Shown: piece after piece, positions 57,660-64,000 of the stretch | Position numbering within the stretch: position 1 is the first letter of the stretch | How the letters are laid out: each line of letters begins with the position of its first letter | The notes under the pieces: model-generated | Databases searched by the model: none | What the model saw: the letters and a program-made list of their open reading frames with translations, nothing else | What the model was told of the DNA's origin: nothing | Assembly (NCBI GenBank): GCA_016841955.1 | Contig: JAENYE010000001.1 | Coordinates: 818,025 to 882,024, forward strand | Reading direction: 5' to 3' | Length of the DNA: 64,000 bases | From: Methanobacteriota archaeon | Lineage (GTDB): Archaea > Halobacteriota > Methanomicrobia > Methanomicrobiales > Methanoculleaceae | Translations under genes and position numbers: made by a program

Positions 57660-58313
57660 TCACCCGCTAAGAACAATTCCCTGCCGGATACTATCGAAGA
57701 ATGGGGCATCCTCGGTCTTTAATCGATAGGTTTCGTCCGGGGTATGGACGATCGGGGAGAACTCCCGCGAGAGGGCGACCTGGTGCCGTTGCAGCATCTC
57801 CCGGACGGCTTCTTTTGCGGTGGTCTCGATATAGAGGTCGATATCGCTCGCAGACGTATCCTCCCCTCGTGCACAACTGCCGTAGAGTACGACGTTCGTC
57901 GTCACGCCCTGCAGGTCGCGGATGAGGGCCTGCAGTTCCAGGAGCGTGAACCAGATCTTCATTTGCCGGAGGAGGACGCTCTCCATCTTCGCCTGGTAAA
58001 AGGCGAGGTTTCCCACATCTTCACGGGTGACCAGATCCATTGCCTCCAGGTATTTGAGGTTTTTACTGACGAGCGAGACATCGCGCTCCACCATCCGCGA
58101 GAGCTCCCGGACGTGGAATTTTTTTGTATACTCTCTTCCGAGGACGACGAGGAGGATCAATGACGACTTACGGAGGAGCGACCCGTATGCATCCAGGAAG
58201 TCCCAGGGGTGGAGGTCTCCGGCCGTCGCGGGCTCCGGCGTCTCATCGTCCGGGTGTCGCCGGTCGCGATCGTTATGTTGTTTTATATTCAACATATGTT
58301 GATTTTCTCTCAT
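57660..58313 (-). CDS. Winged-helix plus nucleotidyltransferase (MNT-like) protein
   Basis: The 217-residue protein has an N-terminal winged helix (HVRELSRMVERDVSLVSKNLKYLEAMDLVTRE, about residues 65-105) and a C-terminal minimal nucleotidyltransferase with LYGSCARGEDTSASDIDLYIE, holding the GS and D-x-D residues. Fused regulators of this kind occur with HEPN partners in toxin-antitoxin systems. I choose the ATG at 58313 because a duplicated promoter segment (58298-58405 and 60021-60127) keeps ATGAGA in both copies and puts a TATA-like box about 28 bases before it. A 14-base palindrome sits in the first codons. No intact HEPN gene follows. Confidence 0.82.
   Translation of the reverse strand: MRENQHMLNIKQHNDRDRRHPDDETPEPATAGDLHPWDFLDAYGSLLRKSSLILLVVLGREYTKKFHVRELSRMVERDVSLVSKNLKYLEAMDLVTREDVGNLAFYQAKMESVLLRQMKIWFTLLELQALIRDLQGVTTNVVLYGSCARGEDTSASDIDLYIETTAKEAVREMLQRHQVALSREFSPIVHTPDETYRLKTEDAPFFDSIRQGIVLSG
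58289..58302. promoter_or_regulatory. 14-base palindrome in the start region of the MNT gene
   Basis: TCAACATATGTTGA is a perfect palindrome overlapping codons 4-8 of the winged-helix/MNT gene. A further half site TTCAACA lies about 20 bases upstream in the leader. It could be an operator for the winged helix encoded there (inference). Confidence 0.45.
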
Positions 58314-58405
58314 CGTTTGTTGAATATATGTCAAGGGTGTACATAAAGGTATCCGGATGGGGCTTTCTGTTTTGCACGGGAGTACCCGGGCGTGGTATTT
58401 GTGCA
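58298..58405. repeat. Duplicated promoter segment, copy 1
   Basis: About 108 bases similar (roughly 80 percent by eye) to 60021-60127, including CTCATCGTTTGTTGAATAT, GGGGCTTTCTGTTTTGCACGG and GGTATTTGTGCA. Copy 1 supplies the promoter and first codons of the winged-helix/MNT gene. A further related stretch, GTGCAGGAGGTGCTTGCACGAAT, follows at about 58478. Confidence 0.7.
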
Positions 58406-58763
58406 ACAGGCTGCTGCATCAATTTTTTCCTGTTCTCACAACCGTATCATCGCCGATAAAGCGTGAGCTGGGCATTTGTGCAGGAGGTGCTTGCACGAAT
58501 TATACATAACGACCATATCGCATCGCCCTCTGAAGTTCACTTTACCGGTAGACCGGGTGCAGGACCACAGTCCGGTGCCGGGAGCGGTTCTTCAGGTTCG
58601 GAGGGGTGGTTTTCCGGGCCGGGAGCGGCGACCCCCATATATAACAGTTGAATTGGCCGATTTTTCATTTACCCGGAGTTTTCTCGGCTGGTACAACGAT
58701 AGGGATATGTATATGACGGAAAACGGTAAACAGAACCATTCAAAGACGTAGCGAGGTAACTGT
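58406..58763. other. Intergenic region with AT-rich promoter-like stretches
   Basis: About 360 bases between divergent genes. It holds the second half of the duplicated segment (near 58478-58530) and TATATA-like stretches at about 58636-58643 and 58707-58713 that may drive the Lys-rich small gene. No gene of its own is convincing. Confidence 0.45.
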
Positions 58764-59189: not shown

Positions 59190-59244
59190 GATCGTTGTCG
59201 ATCGCTTCCAGGATGTCGAGGAGCCGTTCATTCCCGTCCCTCAT
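59185..59244 (-). pseudogene. Truncated HEPN-like (DUF86-type) remnant
   Basis: The ATG overlaps the MNT stop (ATGA), the classic MNT-HEPN arrangement. The frame reads MRDGNERLLDILEAIDNDL and then stops. This is the usual start of DUF86/HEPN toxins, which run to about 110 residues, so over 80 percent of the gene is gone and the active site (R-x4-6-H) with it. Confidence 0.6.
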
Positions 59245-59534
59245 AACGGCACTGCCTCTTTGAGTATCCGCTTTTTATAGCGCTCCTTGAGTGCTGTCTC
59301 TGTCACCACGTCCACCCGGCAATCAAGGTCTTCCTCCAGGTCCTGGATGAGCGCGATGTGGTCGAGGAGGCTCCTGCCCGGCTCCAGCTCCACCAGGAGG
59401 TCGAGGTCGCTCTCCGGCCCGGTCTCTCCCCGGGCGACCGATCCGAAGACCCGCAGGTTTGTTGCCCCGTGCCGCCCGGCTATTGCGAGAATCCTGGACC
59501 GCTTTTTCCGGATCTGATCCAGCGTGACGGGCAT
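59241..59534 (-). CDS. Minimal nucleotidyltransferase (MNT antitoxin-like)
   Basis: The 97-residue protein has the MNT core LRVFGSVARGETGPESDLDLLVEL with the GS motif and D-x-D metal ligands, and a conserved later Asp in CRVDVVTETAL. In MNT-HEPN toxin-antitoxin pairs, MNT adds AMP to HEPN and silences it. Here the partner is only a 19-residue remnant, so this gene is an orphan antitoxin or has another role. The ATG has no strong ribosome site; a GGAGATATAAATCTCC palindrome with a TATA core lies about 30 bases upstream. Confidence 0.85.
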   Translation of the reverse strand: MPVTLDQIRKKRSRILAIAGRHGATNLRVFGSVARGETGPESDLDLLVELEPGRSLLDHIALIQDLEEDLDCRVDVVTETALKERYKKRILKEAVPL

Positions 59535-59851: not shown

Positions 59852-60434
59852 GGTTGCAATATCTCCTCACGGGAACAATTCTGATATAGACAGTGGGTCG
59901 TTCTTCTGTTTGAAAATATCGTGTCTCACCCGCTGCCGACATGCCTACTGTTAGTTTTCGGGCATATGTAGGTTTTGAGTTATCAAAAACACGCCGATTA
60001 TGGTAAAATATTCATCTGTTGTTGACTTTTTTCTCATCGTTTGTTGAATATGTGTCAACAGTACAAATAACGGTCCGGGTGGGGCTCTCTGTTTTGCACG
60101 GGATTACCCGGGCATGGTATTTGTGCAGGAAGTGCTTGCACGAATCATGTGACCGCATGGCATCGGCTCCGCGGTTCGTTTTTCCGGACGGGGTTTGGTC
60201 TGGATGAGTTTTCGGGCGGAGCGGTGGGGATGAGCGTTGCGTTGCGGGGGGGTGTTAGGGGCTTGGGGTGGTTAAGGCATCGGGGACATACTTTTGAAGG
60301 CCTGGAGCTGGCGCACGATCTGGTGGGCAGGAAGACGGTGTTGGATTTCACGGATCCAGCGTATACAATTGACCGGCTGCATCCAAAACCCACTTAGATG
60401 TTCCTTTTGTCGATTCATTAATTAAAGTTCGAAA
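59852..60434. other. Remnant-rich intergenic region
   Basis: About 580 bases. It contains the second copy of the duplicated promoter segment (60021-60127), followed by G-rich sequence with an 82-codon plus-strand frame (60149-60397) that I cannot support as a gene. Composition drops sharply in GC at about 60400, the border of the AT-rich cassette. Confidence 0.45.
60021..60127. repeat. Duplicated promoter segment, copy 2
   Basis: Similar to 58298-58405 with the same TTTGTTGAATAT, GTTTTGCACGGGATTACCCGGGC and GTATTTGTGCAGGA motifs. Read on the minus strand, the conserved ATGAGA opens only a 28-codon frame, so the gene once driven here appears lost. Confidence 0.7.
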
Positions 60435-61346
60435 TTATCTTGATTCACGGTAAATCGCAATGGGTGTGATAGCAATTTCAGGAAACATGACACACTGAGC
60501 CATTATTTCTACGCCTCTGAACGCATCGAAGATCCCTTGGAGAGCAGTTTCAATTTGAGTCCCACTCATGTTCAAACCTTCATGTGATCTATCTTCTGGC
60601 GGTATCGAGGATACTTGGCCAAAGATTGTCCATTCCGAAACCGGAGCCGTTCCGTACTTATAAATGATGCTTGAAATATCATCTCGTAAGTAGGTTTTAT
60701 CGATATTGCCTACAAACCGAAAATCTGGATTATCTTTGTAGGGTATGGATTTGATCACAACTCTATCCTTATAGAAGAGATCAAAAAAGAGCATAAAGCC
60801 TGAACGCATGTTTTTATCTAAGCTACCTGTCAATTCTTTTGTTAGTTGTTGAGTAGCCTTTTGGCGTTGAGCATTCGTTTTGAACTCTTGATTTTGGAGG
60901 TTGCACTCTACAAGAAATGATGCTAGGTCACCATAGTGTTCGATGAAGGATCTTAATAGACCAAAGTCATTGATATTTACAAGTCCTTTTATTAAAACGA
61001 AAGACGTATCGCCGATTACTTCTCTAATGTCATCAGAATACCTGGGATATGAGCTATTCGGTAATTCAAGCAACTCTCCATGCTCGACGAGGTAACTCTC
61101 TACCCTATTATAGATATAATCATGTAACGATCTTGTTTCGGATATTTGGCGATGTAAATTGACCTCAGCTTCGACGTGCCCCTCTAACAGAAAGGGTACT
61201 TTACCTTTTCCACCACCCGAAGCACTAGTTGAATTCCCTCTCGTTTCTTCTGTTAAATTTATTAAACCTTCCTCTGTTTGAGAAATTATGGACTTTAGGC
61301 GTTCAATGTCGACATAAATGTAATCTCGAACTCGAAAACGCTTCAT
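60435..61346 (-). CDS. DUF6414-like protein of an AT-rich cassette
   Basis: The 303-residue protein starts MKRFRVRDYIYVDIERLKSIISQTEEGL, a pattern I recall from DUF6414 proteins (a Tyr/Asp start followed by a helix with SQ); this is memory, not a search. It continues with a Gly/Ser-rich linker near residues 38-50 and mixed alpha/beta sequence. No catalytic motif is clear and there is no membrane segment. The gene is far AT-richer than the chromosome. It lies about 110 bases after a polytopic membrane protein gene on the same strand, and the pair sits next to tRNA-Leu. Confidence 0.65.
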   Translation of the reverse strand: MKRFRVRDYIYVDIERLKSIISQTEEGLINLTEETRGNSTSASGGGKGKVPFLLEGHVEAEVNLHRQISETRSLHDYIYNRVESYLVEHGELLELPNSSYPRYSDDIREVIGDTSFVLIKGLVNINDFGLLRSFIEHYGDLASFLVECNLQNQEFKTNAQRQKATQQLTKELTGSLDKNMRSGFMLFFDLFYKDRVVIKSIPYKDNPDFRFVGNIDKTYLRDDISSIIYKYGTAPVSEWTIFGQVSSIPPEDRSHEGLNMSGTQIETALQGIFDAFRGVEIMAQCVMFPEIAITPIAIYRESR

Positions 61347-61455
61347 AATATCACCTTCTTTGGTTGATTCTTGAAATGAGCATTACTAACACTTTTCTTG
61401 TGCAGAACGCCATTCACACTGAATAAGCATTTTACGGCATTAACGTACCATTCGG

Positions 61456-62061
61456 TTAAATCCGATAAGGATCTTGATGTCTCACCTCCGAAACTGCATT
61501 TTCAATAAATGCTGACAATATTAAAACTATAAGCGATATTATCAAGGAAATAGAATAGTTCACTAGCCCGTCTGTTATAGAAATCGCTGGTAACGCATAT
61601 CCACTAATAGATACGGCTAATAGCGCAAAGTTTGGAACGAATTTGGAAAAGTAATTGAGGACCACTATAAACATCGTCGGTTCATCCGAGAGTTTTGATG
61701 GGGCATAAATAAACGCACAAGCGAAGCTAAGGCATAGAAGCGATGTCGATATGTAATCAACGTTTAAAATGACAAAACCCAAGGTCACCAATAAGAAGGG
61801 TGCTAAAAACGATCCTAAGAAGTAAAACTGTAATTTTGACTTTATTTTTGTTTGCCCCCAATTGTATCCAGCGGCATATCCCAAAAAGACGAAAGTTAAA
61901 TATTTAACAACCTGATTTTCGAATAATGGTAACTGGCCTCCTGTTGTATAACTGCCCACTCCAAATCCTAAAGTGATAATGAGAAATGAGAGGAGAGCGC
62001 CAAAAATGGTGGCGTTTCGAATATCGTTATCTGTATATATTCGATTAATCCATTCAGGCAT
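61456..62061 (-). CDS. Polytopic membrane protein of the AT-rich cassette
   Basis: The 201-residue protein has about six hydrophobic helices (near residues 18-40, 52-68, 78-100, 105-120, 130-155 and 165-190) and short loops. No family is recognised. It is the upstream gene of a two-gene minus-strand unit with the DUF6414-like gene and shares its low GC. A membrane protein plus a soluble partner at a tRNA border is a common plan for defence or mobile cargo (inference). Confidence 0.7.
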   Translation of the reverse strand: MPEWINRIYTDNDIRNATIFGALLSFLIITLGFGVGSYTTGGQLPLFENQVVKYLTFVFLGYAAGYNWGQTKIKSKLQFYFLGSFLAPFLLVTLGFVILNVDYISTSLLCLSFACAFIYAPSKLSDEPTMFIVVLNYFSKFVPNFALLAVSISGYALPAISITDGLVNYSISLIISLIVLILSAFIENAVSEVRHQDPYRI

Positions 62062-62301
62062 ACTAAACGATTGATATTGTGTATAATAAATCTATCTTCG
62101 AATAACTGATTCCGAACATCCTGAAAGTCAGTTACTGGAATTCCCGGTAGGACTGCCAACCATAAGTGCTTAATTGCTAAGCAGGGTCCAGTTTTCCTGA
62201 GATAACCGCCGCGTGGGGCTGGCGTGAGGGGAGGTAAGCAAAAGGAGTTAACGGTTAACTAGGTCCTATTTTTCGAGATACCTATAACCCAAACCAAAAA
62301 A

Positions 62302-62384
62302 TGCGAGTGGCAGGATTCGAACCTGCGAACTCCTTCGAGAATCGATCTTGAGTCGATCACCTTTGGCCTCTCGGTAACACTCGC
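62302..62384 (-). tRNA. tRNA-Leu (anticodon CAA)
   Basis: The 83-base minus-strand sequence folds as a class II tRNA: acceptor GCGAGTG/CACTCGC with discriminator A, anticodon arm ATCGA-CTCAAGA-TCGAT with anticodon CAA, a long variable arm (TCTCGAAGGAGTTC region) and T arm GCAGG-TTCGAAT-CCTGC. CCA is not encoded. Its 3' end faces the AT-rich cassette, so it is a plausible integration site. Confidence 0.95.
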
Positions 62385-62511
62385 GCCTGTACCTCTTGAA
62401 CCTCTAAAGTAATGAGCTTGATGGCGGCCCGCCCCGCCGGACCTCACCCCGACAGGCACCCGCCGGCCGCGAACCCATTACTTCGCTAAAATGTTTGAGA
62501 TAGTCCTCAGG

Positions 62512-62645
62512 AGGTCAAACCACCGACTTCCCTTCGCGTTCTTCGCGGCTTCGCGTGAGTATTCAGCACCGGTGGGGGTGATAGAGCCTCACGCGAAGTG
62601 CGACGGATGGGACATCCGGAGCTTGAGCACCGTCAGGTGCGAAGT
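62512..62645. repeat. Modular hairpin repeat, array H, with mirrored core
   Basis: CTTCGCGTTCTTCGCGG leads to CTTCGCGTGAG (62549-62559). A 28-base spacer follows, then CTCACGCGAAG (62588-62598) and modules GGATG-GGA-CATCC (62605-62617) and GCACC-GTCA-GGTGC (62627-62640). It lies between tRNA-Leu and the DP2 gene. Confidence 0.85.
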
Positions 62646-62743
62646 CCAGTGTCTGGGTGGTGCTAACTCCGTTTTAAGTCGTCGCACGAGGCTGCATTGC
62701 TCGATGCCTGATGTCAAAATTGGTGAAGTACTGGAACCCCCCC

Positions 62744-64000
62744 TCACATAAAGTCCGCGAGCCCCAGTTGCTTCTCCGGGGGCTGGCCGAAGGTGGACTC
62801 GATCTGCATGAAGAGGACCTCTACCCGCTGCTTCGTGTACGCCGAGACCGCGTAGGTCTCGCAGATGTTGCGCGACATCTCCAGGTACTTCTTCACCGAG
62901 CCCTCGTGGACGGTCGGGATGACGTTGCCCCCGCAGCGGGTGCACTTCCCTGCGAGCGGCATCCGGCGGTATTTCGCGTTGCACTTCATGCACCGGACCT
63001 TTTGTTTGGAAAACGCGTTGAGGTTGCCCTGGAGGTCCCGGATGAAGTGGGTGTTTAAGACCCGCTCGGCAACATCGTCCTCGTCCACCGCCCGGATCTT
63101 CTTCGCGAGGTCGAGCTCCGCCTCGAGCTTGTCGAGCATCGACCCGAGCTTCGTGTAGGTGGACTCGAGCGGCCCCGCGGAGATGTCAGAGGTCGGGTGG
63201 GTGAAGAGGAACCCCTCGACCTGGGCCGGGGTCCCGAGCCGCCGCTCCACCCGGTCGACGTATTTGTCGAGGTCTTTGGGGTGGGCGTAGGCGAGGCAGC
63301 CGTTGTAGACCTCGAGGGGGTAGTGGTCGCAGACGTCGACGTTGAGGCTCTCCTTGTCGACCTCCGCCGGGTCGATCCGGGTGGTCAGGACGAGCGGCGC
63401 GTCCATCGTCCCGCCCCGCGTCTCGGGGAGGTAGGCCCGGGAGAAGTTGATCAGCCCGTCGAGGAGGAGCATCACGCAGTCCTCGTCGCCGTCGCACTGG
63501 CCGCAGAAGATGCCGTTCGCGACCAGCGTATGGTTCTCGGCGACCGTCAGGCAGTAGACCCGGTCGTCGAGCGCCTGGACGGTCTCGCGGGCCACGACCT
63601 CGTCGCTGACGACGAGCCCGCCCTCCTCCACCGGGACCCGGTCGCCGACCGCAACCTCGAGCGCCCGGATCTTTCGCAGGTAATCGGTGTCCCAGACCAG
63701 CATCGCGTGGTCGGGCGTGACCGTGAGGATCCTCCCCCGCCTCGTCGCGAACCGGATCAGGTGCGCCGGGGCCCGGTGGACCGAGACGGAGGTGACCTTC
63801 TTCAGGCTGGTCTTCCCCTGCGGGTCGATGCTTCTCGCGTAGAACGGCTGCTTAGGATCGGAGTAGAACGTCCCCACGTGGTCCAGCCCCGGTTTTCTGA
63901 GATCGAAGTTCTCCGTCACGAACTGCCGGATCGGCACCGTTATCCACTGTCTGCCGTCGGAGACGGTGATCTCGGTATCGCCCGCAAAACAGTTCCGGCG
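62744..64000 (-). CDS. polC: DNA polymerase D large subunit (DP2), 3' part with intein
   Basis: The gene enters from the right edge and stops at 62744. The C-extein begins [29 protein letters not shown], the catalytic metal-binding region of DP2, and ends with [25 protein letters not shown], a zinc finger, then a helical tail. The N-extein is visible only as RRN at the edge. Between them lies a 165-residue in-frame intein. DP2 is the catalytic subunit of the archaeal replicative polymerase PolD. No start is in the window. Confidence 0.95.
63497..63991 (-). other. Mini-intein in DP2 with C-terminal Gln
   Basis: The intein starts [21 protein letters not shown] (block A, nucleophile Cys1) directly after [18 protein letters not shown] is block B with T-x2-H, and [21 protein letters not shown] forms blocks F and G, before extein Cys+1 of CDGDED. 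It is 165 residues, so there is no room for a homing endonuclease. The last residue is Gln, not Asn, and the penultimate residue is Gly where His is usual. DP2 inteins of Pyrococcus are known to end in Gln; I recall this without a citation at hand. Confidence 0.88.

Follow-up and report, generated by a model that had tools for sequence, protein, structure and literature searches.

An AT-rich cassette encoding a DUF6414 protein and a polytopic membrane protein as candidate antiviral cargo at an archaeal tRNA-Leu hotspot

The window analyzed here, by which we mean the whole stretch of 64,000 nucleotides, comes from a Methanoculleaceae genome of 2.43 Mb in 9 contigs, and its archaeal origin is reflected in a polC gene of the archaeal DP2 type by Pfam. 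The features at the locus are as follows.

59241..59534, minus strand: MNT nucleotidyltransferase, MntA/PDC-S09-like, an accessory neighbor (Pfam NTP_transf_2, E=2e-15; PADLOC PDC-S09, E=7e-37)
60400..62265, no strand: AT-rich cassette (GC profile; content clusters; absent from the site in 20 relatives compared by blastn)
60435..61346, minus strand: DUF6414 protein, 303 aa (Pfam PF19952 over its full length; AF2 model)
61456..62061, minus strand: orphan polytopic membrane protein, 201 aa, with about six hydrophobic segments (ORF; hydropathy)
62066..62100, minus strand: possible TATA-like element (TTTATTATA) 5' of the membrane gene (read by eye)
62302..62384, minus strand: tRNA-Leu(CAA), intact, the conserved border of the variable site (ARAGORN; kept in relatives)
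62744..63937, minus strand: polC, DNA polymerase II large subunit, partial, the core flank (Pfam PolC_DP2_cat, E=2e-52)

The cassette stands out by composition, with a GC content of 0.37 to 0.40 between about 60.40 and 62.27 kb, compared with 60 to 68% for the genes at 50 to 56 kb and 0.55 to 0.69 to the right of tRNA-Leu. As the interval at 57 to 60 kb is already intermediate (0.47 to 0.59), the drop into the cassette is a second step and not a direct fall from core GC. The right edge lies at about 62,265, and homology to relatives stops at 62269 to 62301; the left edge is placed at about 60,400 by composition, with the homology of relatives stopping at 59,858 to 59,980. Two ORFs are found within these limits, both on the minus strand: the gene for the 201-aa membrane protein, which is the first of a putative operon, and the DUF6414 gene 109 bp downstream of it without overlap. 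Since tRNA-Leu(CAA) is itself on the minus strand, the cassette lies on the 3' side of the tRNA. Two repeats adjoin these features. An approximately 260-bp dispersed repeat at 62476 to 62734 occupies the interval between polC and the tRNA and has many partial copies (about 68 to 98% identity) in this genome and the genus, while a short stretch at 60019 to 60150, next to the cassette, recurs at 58357 to 58480, both copies reading similar to GLSVLHG.TRAWYLC, and is probably a degenerate dispersed repeat. The polC gene also carries an intein region (Pfam Intein_splicing, E=2.8e-6).

The first-pass annotation, made from the letters alone, had described much of this arrangement, and its account of a sharp GC fall near 60.4 kb with recovery by the tRNA, of a DUF6414-like soluble protein and a six-helix membrane protein on one strand, of a position on the 3' side of tRNA-Leu(CAA), of a core replication gene as flank and of a foreign composition all agree with our analysis; the last is borne out by the GC of 37 to 40%. 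Its description of MNT/HEPN debris to the left was partly right. The MNT component is there, in the gene at 59241 to 59534 and in a protein with an HTH and an MNT nucleotidyltransferase at 57660 to 58406 (PADLOC PDC-M05A), the latter being conserved near the site in several relatives. On inspection by eye, no HEPN gene was seen among the ORFs there. Considered as the antitoxin of a possible type VII (HEPN/MNT) toxin-antitoxin system, the gene at 59241 to 59534 scores 45.5 bits against the NCBIfam MntA model, below the cut-off of 60; it probably does not belong with the cassette's pair.

The 303-aa protein matches Pfam PF19952 at E=6e-29 and 102 bits (cut-off 25) over positions 2 to 283 of a 283-position profile, and shares the N-terminal FIYLD..R..S..SQ...G and C-terminal P.IAITPIAIYR motifs of the family; it is a member of DUF6414 (PF19952; PHROG 9699) that differs from it in nothing. 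An AF2 model built from 45 sequences (pLDDT 84.6, pTM 0.78) describes an alpha/beta protein in which residues 33 to 71 are disordered. Foldseek searches with this model against the PDB and BFVD returned nothing at E<0.001, a sequence-profile search of the PDB gave no match, and neither a catalytic motif nor a known fold pointing to a biochemical activity is evident. DUF6414 is a family without assigned function. Neither cassette protein has a match in PADLOC-DB 2.0.0 at E<=1, and "DUF6414" is nowhere named in the 5.39 million open-access papers searched, a scope that leaves aside supplements and subscription journals.

The frame of the 201-aa protein is longer than the longest stop-free frame (157) among 500 compositionally matched Markov-random sequences, and the protein's hydropathy and helices are compatible with about six membrane helices, the structure model being of low confidence. 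That model, with a mean pLDDT of 47, is unusable and was kept out of the fold search. No family was found for the protein in Pfam, NCBIfam, or PADLOC, and no convincing homologue in phages, plasmids, IMG/VR, 393 genomes of the phylum, or 229 genomes of the order; the best match outside the window is weak (E=3e-4, with 27% identity along 119 aa within a frame of 580 aa at locus L157). The check by HMM and structure that had been suggested for both proteins thus yielded a family for DUF6414, no solved fold, and no family for the membrane protein. Upstream of the membrane gene, TTTATTATA may represent an archaeal TATA-like element.

When the site is placed into the context of the genus, additional insight is gained. 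A query consisting of tRNA-Leu and the end of polC matched all 35 genomes of the genus, and in blastn comparison with 20 relatives the similarity of polC and the tRNA is kept and stops at 62269 to 62301, that is, at the 3' end of the tRNA or just past it. The 1.5 kb beside the tRNA holds 16 unrelated contents among 21 genomes, the window counted: five genomes have one content in common (52 to 59% GC) and two a type I restriction system, while each of the other 14, that of the window among them, occurs once. Of these 14, five are AT rich (36 to 39% GC over 1.5 kb), again counting the window. Relatives have restriction-modification genes of both type I and type II at the site: HsdR is encoded in two genomes, C5 methylase and Vsr together with a GHKL ATPase and a Methyltransf_35 protein in one, and an N4/N6 methylase in another. 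As 16 contents are combined with confirmed restriction-modification cargo, the tRNA-Leu/polC site is a genuine, genus-wide accessory-gene hotspot carrying defense cargo. It resembles the hotspots described for P2/P4 phages and for the cI-integrase interval of Vibrionaceae phages (PMC9122126) in offering a fixed site to variable cargo, and differs from them in being an archaeal chromosomal tRNA-Leu site and not a prophage.

The distribution of DUF6414 is patchy, and acquisition of the cassette was probably recent. Besides its occurrence in 1 of 40 genomes of the archaeal family, DUF6414 was found in 24 of 393 genomes of the phylum sample, in 9 of 378 from the phylum of a Clostridium genome, and in 3 of 321 from the class of an Idiomarina genome; a contig scan with the single sequence had recovered no relatives, which were obtained with a six-sequence alignment. 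The range takes in methanogens, haloarchaea (Haloferax volcanii has a DUF6414 gene), and ANME archaea as well as bacteria and temperate phages. In three haloarchaea-like loci (L079, L081, and L089), the gene for a DUF6414 protein of 410 to 435 aa overlaps head to tail with that for a protein of 390 to 430 aa on the same strand. Archaeal proteins at L100 and L105 with an apparent N-terminal TM helix of their own match the family only near threshold and were for that reason left out of the evidence. The nearest relatives of the window's DUF6414, in Methanosarcina (52%), Aegiribacteria (45%), and the same order (41 to 43%), have no membrane neighbor of the window type. Co-inheritance had been named beforehand as the point on which the original reading would turn, and the window's pair is not conserved in the other genomes searched; its status as an inherited unit is not supported.

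A different picture emerges from a phage clade. The P2-like Vibrio phage PQ189350 and several contigs of IMG/VR encode a protein of about 145 aa with three or four TM segments, followed usually by a single-TM protein of about 62 aa and then by DUF6414, with gene overlaps of 4 to 8 bp in most, and where the contig is long enough the operon is placed between cI and integrase. For Vibrionaceae K139-like phages, this interval has been described as a hotspot of antiviral genes (Rousset et al. 2022, PMC9122126), and the phage DUF6414 modules sit exactly within it. Between the phage DUF6414 gene and integrase follow a KAP NTPase, an AriA-like AAA ATPase, a Schlafen/AlbA protein, or a DUF2971 or TIR-like protein. 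A query with the 145-aa protein found DUF6414 in 8 of 8 contigs and the reciprocal query found the 145-aa protein in 10 of 10; the two sets overlap in seven contigs, so that the counts are not independent of each other. The three-gene operon was recorded at L110 (5391-6924), L145 (7865-9407), L153 to L156, L164, L169, L174, L175, and L177. L145, from a genome in the phylum of an uncultured Clostridium, has the same gene order and a DUF6414 sister to the phage clade (support 95/88). Its membrane genes show weak similarity to phage profiles built without it (E=0.023 and no match), so that the case for L145 rests on gene order, size, topology, a 4-bp overlap, and the DUF6414 clade. DUF6414 and a membrane protein are obligate together in the phage clade, and the operon, in which DUF6414 is joined by two small membrane proteins, is by itself a clean candidate for a defense system.

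The window shares with this operon a DUF6414 protein of about 300 aa encoded last, with membrane gene(s) just upstream on the same strand, and differs from it in having a single, larger, unrelated membrane protein, a gap of 109 bp, and a DUF6414 of another clade. No ~62-aa single-TM protein overlapping the start of DUF6414 was detected by hmmsearch at the window locus. An apparent similarity of the 201-aa protein to a phage protein of 147 aa (pairwise E of 2e-4 without composition correction) disappeared in profile comparison, hhalign giving a probability of 0.2% against the ~145-aa protein and hmmsearch no match. The arrangement of a soluble and a membrane protein, advanced for the window from its sequence, recurs in the operon of the phage clade, but the window's own two genes are not conserved as a pair.

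Defense genes also accompany DUF6414 closer to the window. Within the window's own clade (support 97/92), type II genes for a methylase and a restriction enzyme (PADLOC E=4e-99) immediately precede DUF6414 at L114, and HsdR is found near it at L115; at other loci, the neighbors include Eco57I restriction-modification, SIR2, Dcm, TIR with YhcG, and GmrSD. These neighbors, chosen by visual inspection of about 33 non-phage loci, then confirmed by profile, and set against no matched control, constitute an association and not a measured enrichment, and many DUF6414 loci have no recognized defense neighbor. Such neighbors in relatives lend support to the defense reading of the first-pass annotation. 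From this genomic context, the DUF6414 family most likely takes part in antiviral defense.

It can be hypothesized, at a level of confidence that falls somewhat short of even, that the cassette reached this genus-wide variable site by horizontal acquisition, as accessory cargo, that its DUF6414 protein is of a family of antiviral defense not described before, and that the mechanism is coupled to the membrane. The soluble DUF6414 protein would then sense or relay an infection signal, and the polytopic protein encoded upstream would act as effector or membrane anchor, arresting the cell or blocking the virus. The first-pass annotation had proposed an abortive-infection type system, in which infected cells would stop growing or die and thereby shield the population. 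The genes with their foreign composition, the hotspot, the defense neighbors in relatives, and the obligate operon of another clade are observed; co-transcription, physical coupling, the direction of signaling, and an antiviral effect of the pair are what we infer here. As a DUF6414 cousin is locked with membrane proteins in a phage antiviral region, the window pair is a good but unproven candidate, and the cassette is best described as horizontally acquired candidate antiviral cargo whose pairing in the window is unproven. It is conceivable, and we put this forward more as a suggestion than as an expectation, that DUF6414 is an undescribed antiviral family of unsolved fold, spread over archaea, bacteria, and prophages and repeatedly teamed with unrelated membrane proteins, of which the window pair would be an archaeal version. 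Against the membrane-coupled reading stand the orphan nature of the membrane protein, the closest DUF6414 relatives, which have no such membrane neighbor, the 109-bp gap, the selection of the defense neighbors by eye, and the negative searches for a catalytic motif or a known fold.

The same observations lend themselves to the main rival, in which DUF6414 is a stand-alone antiviral or antiplasmid protein and the membrane gene an unrelated neighbor that arrived with it or separately. All close relatives of the DUF6414 protein are solo or beside other genes, none of the collections searched holds a convincing homologue of the membrane protein, and a strong SD-like site (AAGGTGAT) just 5' of the DUF6414 ATG, within the 109-bp gap, makes separate expression of DUF6414 possible. 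We consider a bystander membrane gene less likely than a coupled one; both genes lie on the same strand with the same low GC in a cassette that is otherwise empty, and elsewhere in the family one clade always has a membrane partner.

A pair without an antiviral role, serving in membrane stress, in a surface function, or as a toxin-antitoxin system of membrane toxin and soluble antitoxin, appears improbable. Toxin-antitoxin and regulatory loci do include small polytopic membrane proteins encoded next to soluble ones, a role in defense is proposed here from genomic context rather than from function, and the many DUF6414 loci devoid of recognized defense neighbors would fit such a pair; restriction-modification and other defense neighbors, together with recurrence in a published prophage hotspot, would be unexpected for a metabolic or stress function.

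A soluble and a membrane protein in a defense hotspot are already a known general kind. Kiwa pairs KwaA, a membrane protein of about 200 aa, with KwaB (DUF4868), a soluble protein of about 310 aa. By analogy, the window's pair may be likened to Kiwa in general plan and sizes only, as it has no PADLOC or Pfam (DUF4868) match to KwaA or KwaB, and Foldseek found no meaningful similarity to deposited structures.

Site-specific insertion of a small integrative element into the tRNA-Leu gene is very improbable: the homology edge in relatives does fall at the 3' end of the tRNA or within about 30 bp of it, but any hotspot just outside a conserved tRNA gives the same coincidence, the last bases of the tRNA are not directly repeated over 12 or more positions within 22 kb (a single direct 11-mer, 8.6 kb off, is at chance level), no flanking repeat of at least 9 bases was found at the cassette edges, and no site-specific recombinase was found among the eight ORFs scanned at 56 to 64 kb. 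Of the tRNA border in the original reading, the variable site is thus retained and integration at the tRNA is not, the suggested search for attachment-site repeats having come out negative.

Even if the defense reading is wrong, the site would still be a useful marker of an accessory-gene hotspot of the genus. If it is right, the tRNA-Leu site would be a defined hotspot from which methanogen defense could be mined, and to our knowledge few defense systems have been tested in methanogens. With the phage operon, the hypothesis can be put to a direct test in common laboratory bacteria, and, should the defense reading hold, DUF6414 would add an antiviral family for which no fold or function is known and which extends from methanogens, haloarchaea, and ANME archaea to bacteria and temperate phages.
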